Assembly (NCBI GenBank): GCA_013151555.1
Contig: JAADIA010000067.1
Location: 1 to 11,179 of the forward strand
Direction: 5' to 3'
Source of the DNA: Nitrospirota bacterium
GTDB lineage: Bacteria; NPL-UPA2; JAADIA01
DNA: 11,179 bases
The position numbers and the translations under genes are program-made. Positions 4,143-8,691 of the stretch are shown in pieces (position 1 is the first letter of the stretch; the number at the start of each line of letters is the position of its first letter). Below the pieces are notes generated by a model, which worked only from the letters and a program-made list of their open reading frames with translations, was not told the origin of the DNA and ran no database searches.

Positions 4143-4171
4143 TTGCTACCTCTCTTTACTTTTTGTATAAT
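4143..4171 (+). promoter_or_regulatory. Predicted promoter of the repeat protein-mla operon
   Basis: The -35-like hexamer TTGCTA (4143-4148) and a perfect -10 TATAAT (4166-4171) are separated by exactly 17 bases. The predicted transcription start near 4178 lies about 70 bases before the likely TTG start of the repeat protein. It is the only well-matched promoter seen between the M50 gene and mlaD, so it probably drives all four genes. Confidence 0.6.
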
Positions 4172-4246
4172 AAGAACTTCAGTATAAAGGGGGGCGAAAG
4201 CAAAGTTAAACCGTTCCATCGTTCATAAAATTTGGAGTGCGTATCG

Positions 4247-5695
4247 TTGAAGAAAGGAGTCAAAGCAGGGATAACCCTTTTGCTGATGTGTTCCGTCTGG
4301 GGAACAGCATATGCTCGCTCTCAGAGCAACAGCTCCTTTAACCTCTGGCCTCTTTTATATTATGAAGGAAAAGAAGAAGCAGGGACGGAGACAGGGGAAT
4401 TTCTCTGGCCTTTCATCTCTTTCGAGAGCAGTCCGGAGGAATATACCTATGCTTTCCGGCCTCTGTTCATCGTCAGCAAAGAGAAAAAAAAACTTCTCCG
4501 GGAAGTCCAATTCCTCTGGCCTCTCGGGTGGTATAAGAGCACCCCGGAAAAGAAAAAACTTCGCCTTTTTCCTTTCTTTTATTATAATAAATATACGCTC
4601 CCTGACGGGGAGGAAAAGAGCGATTATACCCTTCTCCCTTTCTTTTTCGGCAGTCATTCGGATAAGGGAGACGGTTATTTTGCTTTTTTTCCTTTAGGAG
4701 GCCGGTTAAACCGGTGGTTGGGGAAAGACCGGGTGCGTTTCTTTCTCTTTCCGCTCTATGCCGATACAGCTAAAAGAGATTACCGGAGTTGGTATGTCCT
4801 TTGGCCTGTCTTTTCTTTTGCCAAAGGGAAAGGAGCAGGAGCCTACCGCTTCTGGCCCTTATTTGGACATGGCTATAAGACGGGCGAATATTCAAAGACT
4901 TTTGTTCTCTGGCCTTTCTTTAATTTCCAGAAGGCGGGGTTAAGCGGAGACAATCCGTCAGAGTCGCTGATGATGTTACCTTTCTATGCTTATCAAAGGT
5001 CTCCGGGAAATCGGACCGAAGCAGTCCTCTGGCCTTTTTTTACTTATACCGATAACCGGCGGGAAAATTATAAAGAATGGCATCTTCCCTGGCCCATCTT
5101 CTCCCGGACCAGGGGTGCAGACAGAAGAGGTGATGAACTTTGGCCTCTTTGGGGATACCGGCGGAAGGGGGACAGAGAACGTTTCTATGCTTTCTGGCCT
5201 CTCTATTGGTCTATGAAAGAGAATTCCGGAGAAGTGGAGAAGAGAAAAAATATAGTCTTGCCTGTTTACTGGAGCGAAAGAGAAACCTGGCCGGAAGAGA
5301 ACAAAAGTGCTTCCTATACCCGGGTCTGGCCCTTGCTCAGCTATGAAAGAGGTAAAGATGGTGCACTTAAATTGTCTATTCTTTCCCCTCTCTGGTTCCG
5401 GGACAGGGATGGTTTTCAAAAAAACTATTCTTCTTTCTGGACCCTCTACGAATACAGAAAGGACCGGGAGGGAAACCGGTTCTCGAAAGGTCTGTGGAGG
5501 TTATACCGGCATGAAAGGACGAAACGTTCTCATTCCCTGGAGTTAATTCATCTCTTTGCTTACCAGAGAGAGGGAAAGGAAAACATACGTTTTTCTTTTC
5601 TCAAAGGCCTCTTTGAATATAAGAGAAGAAAAGAAAAAAGAGCGCTGCGTTTCTTTTACTTTCTGAGATTTCCACACTATTTATCCGGAGGTTGA
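4247..5695 (+). CDS. Secreted aromatic WP-repeat protein of unknown family, upstream of mlaEFD
   Basis: I do not recognise this family. From TTG 4247 it has 482 residues. That start is preferred over in-frame TTG 4232 because GGAG (4234-4237) lies 9 bases before it and the protein then begins with a clean signal peptide (KKGVKAG, hydrophobic core, cleavage after AYA at about residue 23). The mature part is almost wholly an imperfect repeat of 17-23 (mean about 19) residues: charged turn, then aromatic-[LVF]-W-P-[LF]-[FWY]-x-[FY]. I count 19 core prolines, from residue 35 to 381, then three or four decayed units lacking Pro. Mature Cys is absent. Alternating aromatic strands and Lys/Arg/Glu/Gly turns suggest an antiparallel beta structure, either an outer-membrane barrel or a beta solenoid. 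Only 6 bases separate it from mlaE, so it is probably a functional partner of the transporter. Function inferred, not known. Confidence 0.8.
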   Translation: MKKGVKAGITLLLMCSVWGTAYARSQSNSSFNLWPLLYYEGKEEAGTETGEFLWPFISFESSPEEYTYAFRPLFIVSKEKKKLLREVQFLWPLGWYKSTPEKKKLRLFPFFYYNKYTLPDGEEKSDYTLLPFFFGSHSDKGDGYFAFFPLGGRLNRWLGKDRVRFFLFPLYADTAKRDYRSWYVLWPVFSFAKGKGAGAYRFWPLFGHGYKTGEYSKTFVLWPFFNFQKAGLSGDNPSESLMMLPFYAYQRSPGNRTEAVLWPFFTYTDNRRENYKEWHLPWPIFSRTRGADRRGDELWPLWGYRRKGDRERFYAFWPLYWSMKENSGEVEKRKNIVLPVYWSERETWPEENKSASYTRVWPLLSYERGKDGALKLSILSPLWFRDRDGFQKNYSSFWTLYEYRKDREGNRFSKGLWRLYRHERTKRSHSLELIHLFAYQREGKENIRFSFLKGLFEYKRRKEKRALRFFYFLRFPHYLSGG

Positions 5696-5701
5696 GCGAA
5701 G

Positions 5702-6472
5702 TTGAAAAGATCCTTATCAACTATAGCAAATAAATCTTCTGCCTTTTTTCAAACGGTAGGAGAATATCTCCGCTTACTGTTAAACATCGTTTATTGGTGT
5801 AAAGAAGCTTTCAAGAATACCGGAAGTATTATAAAACAGATGGCCCATATCGGAGTGGATACTCTCCCCATAGCTTCCGTTATGGCTTTCTTCGTAGGAA
5901 TGGTCCTTGCTCTTCACAGCGGATATCAATTCGCTAAATTTGGAGCAGAAGAATGGATCGGAAGATTGGTCGGGTTATCTATGGTGAAAGAACTGGGACC
6001 GGTACTGACCGGGCTGTTACTGGCCGGCCGGGTAGGTTCATCCATGGCTGCAGAGATAGGCACCATGAAAGTTTCCAATGAACTCGATGCCTTAAGGACC
6101 TTGAGGATAAATCCGGTACGTTACCTGGCCATGCCTCGATTTCTTGCTTCCCTCATCATGCTTCCCGTGCTCGTCCTCTATGCCGATGTGGTTGGAATAG
6201 CCGGGGGAGCTTTAACTGCTGCGACCTATGTAAACCTGGAACCCTCTGTCTATTTCGACAGTCTCTTCAAGACTTTAACCTTTAGTGACATATTCGAAGG
6301 TTTAATTAAAGCAGCTTTCTTTGGAGCCGTGGTTGCTCTCACCGGATGTTACAAAGGATTCAAAACCACCGGGGGAGCGCGTGGAGTAGGAAAAGCTACC
6401 ACCAGTTCTGTGGTTCTTTCTTTCCTGATCATTATGATTTTGGATTATGTTATCACGAGAATTTTAGTATGA
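5702..6472 (+). CDS. mlaE: MlaE-family ABC transporter permease
   Basis: This 256-residue inner-membrane permease of the MlaE (YrbE, DUF140) family forms the membrane core of phospholipid/MCE transporters together with the MlaF ATPase and the MlaD hexamer. The family signature is clear: KELGPVLTGLLLAGRVGSS (96-114) followed by AAEIGTM and NELDALRTL (126-134). An N-terminal interfacial helix region (about 1-50) and roughly five membrane segments follow, matching the usual length of about 260. The start is TTG at 5702, supported by GGAGG at 5687-5691 (10-base gap) inside the last codons of the preceding repeat protein gene. Its stop overlaps the mlaF start as ATGA, indicating translational coupling. 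The direction of lipid flow cannot be told from sequence. Confidence 0.93.
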   Translation: MKRSLSTIANKSSAFFQTVGEYLRLLLNIVYWCKEAFKNTGSIIKQMAHIGVDTLPIASVMAFFVGMVLALHSGYQFAKFGAEEWIGRLVGLSMVKELGPVLTGLLLAGRVGSSMAAEIGTMKVSNELDALRTLRINPVRYLAMPRFLASLIMLPVLVLYADVVGIAGGALTAATYVNLEPSVYFDSLFKTLTFSDIFEGLIKAAFFGAVVALTGCYKGFKTTGGARGVGKATTSSVVLSFLIIMILDYVITRILV

Positions 6473-7254
6473 AAACGAAAATTGAAGTATTAGGAATAAG
6501 CAAGAAGTTCGGAGACCATCAGGTCTTGAGGGATGTATCCCTCAAGGTTAAGGAAGGGGAAAATCTGGTCATCATCGGGAGTAGCGGAGGCGGTAAGACA
6601 GTATTGCTCAAGCATATTATCGGTCTCCTGAAGCCGGATTCAGGCAAAATCCTCATCGATGGAGAAGAAGTCACTGATAAAGACGGATTTGGCTTGAAAC
6701 CATTGCGCAAAAAATTCGGCATGGTGTTCCAATCTTCCGCCCTCTTTAATTCCCTGACGGTAGCAGAAAATATCGGTCTGGGACCACGGGAAGCCAGGAT
6801 ATATACGGAAAAAGAGATAAAGGAGATTGTAGAGGAGAAATTGCAGTTAGTCGGTCTGGAAGGCATCGGCGACCTGATGCCGGAAGAACTGAGCGGAGGA
6901 ATGAAGAAGAGGGTGGCCCTGGCAAGGTCCCTGGCTATGAATCCCGAAATAATCCTCTATGATGAACCTACTTCCGAACTGGATCCTCCCACCGCCCATA
7001 CTATAAACCAGTTAATACTCAATCTGAAGGAGAAGTTAAAAGTAACTTCGGTTACGGTAACCCATGATATTAACTGTGCCTATTTTATTGGTGATCGGAT
7101 AGCAATGCTCCATGAAGGAAAAATTATCAAGGTAGCTACTCCCGAGGAAATACGGGCGAGCTGCGACCCTATAGTAGGACAGTTCTTAACCAGAGATGAA
7201 TGGAAAAAAGGATGTCCGGGAAGCCCCGGTCTTACGGAACGAAATGATGCCTGA
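6469..7254 (+). CDS. mlaF: MlaF-family ABC transporter ATPase
   Basis: This 261-residue cytoplasmic ATPase powers the MlaE permease. The reading frame is open further upstream, but the ATG at 6469 is the true start: it overlaps the mlaE stop by four bases, and the upstream codons lie inside mlaE. All ABC elements are present: Walker A GSSGGGKT (37-44), Q-loop Gln88, signature LSGGM (141-145), Walker B ILYDE (162-166), D-loop ELD and switch His199 in VTVTHD. The GGMKKR sequence following the signature Ser is typical of MlaF/Mkl-type proteins. The C terminus has about 20 residues beyond the last core helix. Neighbours mlaE (overlapping) and mlaD (102 bases downstream) fix the assignment. Confidence 0.93.
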   Translation: MKTKIEVLGISKKFGDHQVLRDVSLKVKEGENLVIIGSSGGGKTVLLKHIIGLLKPDSGKILIDGEEVTDKDGFGLKPLRKKFGMVFQSSALFNSLTVAENIGLGPREARIYTEKEIKEIVEEKLQLVGLEGIGDLMPEELSGGMKKRVALARSLAMNPEIILYDEPTSELDPPTAHTINQLILNLKEKLKVTSVTVTHDINCAYFIGDRIAMLHEGKIIKVATPEEIRASCDPIVGQFLTRDEWKKGCPGSPGLTERNDA

Positions 7255-8265: not shown

Positions 8266-8691
8266 ATGTCTCTCTTTAAAGTATCGCCGGGGAAGGAACG
8301 AGAGCTTAGCGAACGTATGCAGCGAATGGGGATTCGGGAGCAAGATTTTCGAGAAACCTTCGTGCGTGCTGCCGGACGCGGCGGTCAAAAAGTTAATAAA
8401 ACCTCATCCTGTGTTTTCCTCTCTCACCTTCCCACCGGTCTTTCGGTCAAATGCCAACGATCGCGCTCACGAGCTCTGAACCGTTTTCTTGCCCGACGGC
8501 AACTCCTGGATAAAATCGAACGTTTACGGGAAGGACGGCTTAGCAAAGAGCAACAGCGTATCGCTAAGATTCGACGGCAGAAGCGTAAACGGTCAAAGCG
8601 GGCAAAGGAGAAGGTCCTGGCCGGGAAACGTCAGCAGGCAGAGAAGAAGAAGTTGCGTTCGGAAGGCACCATTCCTTTTGAGGAAGAGTAA
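8266..8691 (+). CDS. RF-1 domain (GGQ) release-factor-like rescue protein
   Basis: This 141-residue protein contains only the catalytic peptidyl-tRNA hydrolysis domain of class I release factors. GRGGQKVNKTSS has GGQ at 39-41 and is followed by HLPTGLSVKCQ and a Lys/Arg-rich C-terminal helix (about 80-135). Codon-recognition domains are absent, so it should act without a stop codon, on stalled ribosomes or on released peptidyl-tRNA. Its length matches ArfB (140), and the basic tail is like the one ArfB threads into the empty mRNA channel. However, the region after GGQ is as short as in RF1/RF2 and in the mitochondrial mtRF-R/C12orf65 type, so I avoid a firm ArfB name. The start ATG 8266 has no good Shine-Dalgarno site. 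The 3' end converges on the aminopeptidase gene with only 19 bases between them. Confidence 0.82.
   Translation: MSLFKVSPGKERELSERMQRMGIREQDFRETFVRAAGRGGQKVNKTSSCVFLSHLPTGLSVKCQRSRSRALNRFLARRQLLDKIERLREGRLSKEQQRIAKIRRQKRKRSKRAKEKVLAGKRQQAEKKKLRSEGTIPFEEE

Follow-up and report, generated by a model that had tools for sequence, protein, structure and literature searches.

The DNA analysed here, called the window, is the 11,179-nucleotide stretch at positions 1 to 11,179 of contig JAADIA010000067.1, from a Nitrospirota bacterium, and its subject is a gene for an exported protein built almost entirely of Trp-Pro repeats. This gene opens an operon of four genes and is followed by mlaE, mlaF and mlaD (Table 1). 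With an MlaE permease (PF02405), an MlaF-type ATPase and an MlaD protein (PF02470) encoded in succession, the operon is of the MlaEFD type, and the three downstream genes are, as judged from these family assignments, the core of an MCE-type lipid ATP-binding cassette (ABC) transporter. An earlier sequence-only reading of the repeat gene had passed over these neighbours, which carry most of its meaning. Translation of the repeat gene starts at a TTG codon, and a promoter-like site lies approximately 75 bp upstream; as a consensus match this site is a lead only, since such sigma-70-like sites are not clearly enriched across the region as a whole.

Table 1. Features of the repeat-gene operon in the window.
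Feature	Position	Strand	Basis or remark
Putative sigma-70-like promoter, TTGCTA-17-TATAAT	4143..4171	+	Consensus scan, 10/12 matches
Putative ribosome-binding site, GGAG	4234..4237	+	Sequence; 9 nt before TTG at 4247
Gene for Trp-Pro protein (predicted hairpin ribbon)	4247..5695	+	482 aa; operon gene 1
Predicted signal peptide, residues 1-23, likely cut AYA/R	4247..4315	+	Sequence; predicted helix 3-25; homologues with signal peptides or lipoboxes
About 23 repeats of about 19 aa (residues 29-469), predicted beta-hairpins with L-W-P-L/F tip	4331..5653	+	
MlaE-family lipid ABC permease	5702..6472	+	PF02405, E 5e-82; 6 bp after repeat gene
MlaF-like ABC ATPase	6469..7254	+	4-bp overlap with mlaE
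MlaD-like MCE protein, 238 aa	7357..8073	+	PF02470, E 2e-17

The repeat described in the sequence-only reading, a unit of about 19 residues with 19 core prolines, is borne out. The prolines fall at residues 35, 55, 72, 92, 109, 131, 149, 169, 187, 204, 223, 245, 263, 283, 300, 318, 339, 362 and 381, with all spacings between 17 and 23, and the units then degrade as described, losing the proline near residues 399 (WT), 418 (WR), 437 and 453. The total is thus about 23 units rather than the 20 or so first proposed, while the description as a regular, secreted, all-beta repeat protein holds. The core motif is matched 18 times, whereas 10,000 shuffles average 1.2 matches and never exceed 6. The autocorrelation of hydrophobic and aromatic residues peaks at a lag of 18-19 (0.33, with the 99.9th percentile of shuffles at 0.18), and further peaks lie at lags of 37-39 and 58; the repeat is therefore not a product of chance. 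Many of the core prolines are invariant in 29 homologues, which share 23-39% identity with the window protein. From two residues before to two residues after the proline, 60-100% of residues are hydrophobic and 0-5% are charged, while at positions five or more residues away the charged share is 29-59%, with an abundance of Arg, Lys, Glu and Asp.

Homologues were collected by searches among 60 and 386 relatives, by a scan in which each bacterial or archaeal species was represented by one genome and which used the closer homologue set, and from a sample of a single phylum, in which 55 of 148 genomes (37%) carry the repeat gene. Five more distant homologues, when aligned, offered no stretch of sufficient conservation for scanning a collection. 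By record title or taxonomy, the homologues belong to Poribacteria, Abyssobacteria (Hydrogenedentota), Dadabacteria, Myxococcota, Thermodesulfobacteriota, Verrucomicrobiota, Lentisphaerota, Planctomycetota and Sumerlaeota. At the sensitivity used, relatives were absent from the plasmid and viral collections; short matches in G022 and G050:C3 were dropped, with E above 0.05 and lying in open reading frames of more than 900 aa that by eye encode isoleucyl-tRNA synthetase.

These gene neighbourhoods show that the repeat gene is coupled to mlaE, mlaF and mlaD in many phyla. In the species scan, mlaE adjoins it at 29 of 31 loci, and the other two are contig ends. A same-strand mla gene lies within 300 bp at 45 of 51 loci, often with a 4-bp overlap, or at 43 of 49 distinct loci once two duplicated genomes are removed; of the six unlinked loci, two are contig ends, one is a short contig, one has a split cluster and two belong to distant relatives. 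A further 20 loci include 16 linked to mla genes, and the remaining four are one family in which MlaE is located elsewhere in the genome. Same-strand linkage, whether the mla gene precedes or follows the repeat gene, was found in at least six phyla, and three placements occur: upstream of mlaE, downstream of mlaD, and between mlaF and mlaE. Because the linkage has outlasted such rearrangement, selection for it seems likely. The MlaD encoded in these operons is usually long, with a median of 345 aa. At one locus (L012, 3329-4792) mlaE and mlaF are separated by two extra genes, one of which looks DnaC-like by eye; the spacing is similar in L042 and L043.

Two distant and longer relatives of 612 and 615 aa (L051, 7041-8879, minus strand; L052, 1670-3517, plus strand) carry FP/LFPF repeats in neighbourhoods free of mla genes. 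Their repeats are similar, and the repeat superfamily seems to be wider than the MCE-linked family.

Co-occurrence in whole genomes points in the same direction as the linkage. MlaE is present in all 28 carrier genomes tested (18 of 18 in a first set and 10 of 10 in a second, which includes carriers with unlinked copies), and MlaA and MlaC are both missing from 15 of the 18 in which they were sought, the host among them. Omp85/BamA was found in 17 of the 18 and LptD in 12, and therefore the carriers appear to be diderms; both proteins are found in the host, for which an outer membrane is accordingly expected. In a tree of 65 MlaE rows, built by a quick method with a midpoint root and containing long branches, the repeat-gene label is clustered (6 changes, compared with 17.9 in shuffles) and has no single origin, so the repeat gene does not mark one MlaE clade.

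Export of the repeat protein is shown by the N-termini of the family, which carry a signal peptide or, in several lineages, a lipobox. In the window protein the signal is of type I and is probably cleaved behind residue 23; the remainder contains no Cys, as the sequence-only reading had also described. All ten Planctomycetota members of the scan possess a lipobox, with Ala after the Cys in nine. An Ala at this position would favour the outer membrane if the rule established for E. coli holds in these phyla. Lipoboxes were also seen by eye in members from another phylum (L117, L118, L120-L122 and L132), and L055 and L082 look likewise.

The fold was predicted with AlphaFold2 from the window protein and 28 homologues. 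The resulting model (mean pLDDT 89.6, pTM 0.76) comprises some 45 strands, each about six residues long; every repeat contributes two of them, and the Trp-Pro occupies the turn by which these are joined. For a Planctomycetota member, a separate model built on nine aligned rows, all from that phylum, repeats this strand pattern at lower confidence (pLDDT 73, pTM 0.48). The best structural matches of both models are open, single-layer antiparallel sheets: the CPAP G-box/TCP10 domain (Z 9.9 and 10.7), ApoB (Z 9.4 and 9.3) and OspA (Z 9.2 and 8.0). Since a Z near 8 may reflect a common arrangement, and since Foldseek found no global match in the PDB (query TM not above 0.19 among the matches listed), the likeness is one of topology only. 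The protein is thus predicted to form a long single-layer antiparallel beta-ribbon, which may be straight, coiled or ring-shaped, and the hydrophobic residues near the proline and charged residues at least five positions away would give it one greasy edge of about 20 Leu-Trp-Pro-Leu/Phe hairpin tips and one charged edge. The barrel of about 20 strands and the beta solenoid of the sequence-only reading find no support in the model: a solenoid would stack parallel coils with a hydrophobic core along the strands, whereas the structural matches are antiparallel meanders and the hydrophobic residues cluster at the turn. The aromatic core that this reading had placed in a strand sits in the inter-strand turn.

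The view that the family was previously unrecognised stands. Pfam gives the window protein no family at E values up to 10 and matches none of 29 homologues, and sequence searches against PHROGs and the PDB likewise found no family. Identity with MlaA or MlaC was rejected on the lack of any match to PF04333 or PF05494 in the window protein or the 29 homologues, and identity with MORN repeats on the lack of a Pfam match, there being a resemblance of fold only (MORN1, Z 8.5). The sole NCBIfam match is to the Leptospira LA_1737 family (NF047486), in the C-terminal part of the protein (E 6e-5); at 23 bits against a curated cut-off of 60 this is a weak likeness, shared by one of the 29 homologues, and membership was rejected. 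Among open-licence papers, no description of LA_1737 or of such an MCE partner was found. MCE transport itself is known, but the subunit and its predicted architecture are undescribed in the literature searched, and no curated family covers them.

Together, these observations suggest that the repeat protein serves an MlaEFD-type transporter as an exported subunit and as its partner on the outer-membrane side, a reading to which we assign a probability of roughly 0.6; the linkage is shown by the gene neighbourhoods, and the role and geometry are our inference. The protein is probably a lipid-handling partner of MlaEFD where MlaA and MlaC are lacking, and would fill the position occupied by these two in E. 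coli. Its site would be the outer membrane's periplasmic leaflet, to which it would be tethered or against which it would rest, and its greasy edge would dip into that leaflet or line a track for lipid tails moving to or from the MlaD ring. ATP hydrolysis by MlaF would drive transport, which could run in either direction. It is possible, at somewhat less than even odds, that the family represents a widespread and undescribed class of MCE partner, in which a Trp-Pro-edged single-layer beta-ribbon, either open or joined into a ring, ferries lipids between the outer membrane and MlaD in phyla that lack MlaA and MlaC, on a structural principle unlike that of known lipid transporters.

Several observations weigh against this reading. 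The host genome holds a second MlaE-MlaF-MlaD cluster without a repeat gene, and among the relatives MlaE occurs in 309 of 386 genomes while the repeat gene occurs in about 18, so the repeat protein is not a general requirement of such transporters. Three of the 18 carrier genomes have MlaA and MlaC as well. The L128-L131 family has its repeat gene unlinked to mla genes, and the window protein itself has no lipobox; with its type I signal, its anchoring to the outer membrane is only putative. The support is computational throughout, and contact of the repeat protein with MlaD or with lipid is hypothetical. As for the surroundings of these genes, the second cluster of the host (L084, G000:C11, 5036-7622) lies by eye between dnaB/rplI and radA genes, and in the complete 1.6-1.8 Mb genomes of L128-L131 the repeat gene stands beside a coaD-like gene, as read by eye in L128 and L130.

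The short strands also bear on whether the protein could instead be the outer-membrane pore of MlaEFD, either as an integral beta-barrel or as a short-walled closed ring with its tips in one leaflet. Transmembrane strands are usually at least nine residues long. Those of the model, at about six residues, are too short to cross a membrane, and in place of the alternating in/out pattern of a barrel strand of about nine residues or more, hydrophobicity is limited to some five residues at one turn. A signal peptide, an antiparallel meander and many aromatic residues would suit a pore, and porins, VDAC and LptD do appear in the structure lists, but they rank lower and score well below the single-layer sheets, and the Planctomycetota members are lipoproteins. 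Despite the precedent of a barrel-bearing MlaD (PMC10665443), this explanation is unlikely. The same ribbon could alternatively serve as a lipid slide that spans the periplasm and bridges MlaD to the outer membrane, in the manner of TamB/AsmA-type proteins. If the ribbon were straight, its 45 strands at 4.8 angstrom would extend about 215 angstrom, roughly the depth of the periplasm; its greasy edge is single and continuous, its ribbon-type matches include the lipid-binding belt of ApoB, and MlaC is missing from most carriers. Yet this length presumes straightness, Pfam yielded no hit to TamB or AsmA domains, on which ground identity with such a bridge was rejected, and an MlaD with the median length given above could itself span the gap. 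A slide is improbable, though slightly less so than a pore. That the protein is a structural or regulatory envelope component, sharing the operon without a direct part in lipid movement, would agree with the existence of unlinked copies and of distant relatives whose similar repeats are not mla-linked, and its link to lipid is putative. Linkage in three gene orders over many phyla, and the presence of MlaE in every carrier tested, make this very improbable.

The permease, ATPase and MCE protein of the window operon are common to the E. coli system (MlaA-MlaC-MlaFEDB), but unlike E. coli, the host and most carriers lack MlaA and MlaC and encode in their place an unrelated Trp-Pro repeat protein. 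With the outer-membrane lipoproteins PqiC and MlaA the repeat protein would share the role of an outer-membrane lipoprotein partner of an MCE protein, although there is no sequence match and the predicted fold is different. The CPAP G-box/TCP10 domain is, like the window model, a single-layer antiparallel beta-meander of repeated hairpins; it differs in belonging to a eukaryotic centriole protein, and approximately 150-180 residues align at less than 10% identity with a root-mean-square deviation of 5.7-16. We know of no Trp-Pro tips in that domain. The diderm Veillonella parvula likewise has an MlaEFD without MlaA and MlaC (PMC10665443). In that species a long MlaD itself contains the outer-membrane part as a domain, a C-terminal barrel that has been proposed as an outer-membrane pore, whereas in the window MlaD has 238 aa and the beta protein is encoded separately. 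Grasekamp et al. 2023 (PMC10665443) described MlaEFD as the ancestral core, found the MlaD barrel to be absent in the PVC and FCB groups, and raised unidentified proteins in this connection.

Elsewhere in the window, on the plus strand, a gene at 15-722 encodes a secreted protein with PEP-CTERM sorting that weakly matches the carbohydrate-binding family CBM_11, and one at 8266-8691, downstream of mlaD, encodes a stand-alone RF-1-domain protein resembling a peptide release factor.

The repeat family provides a specific, operon-encoded candidate for the means by which MlaEFD reaches the outer membrane where MlaA, MlaC and a barrel-bearing MlaD are all lacking, one that would apply to Planctomycetota, Verrucomicrobiota/Lentisphaerota, Myxococcota/Thermodesulfobacteriota, Dadabacteria and other phyla.
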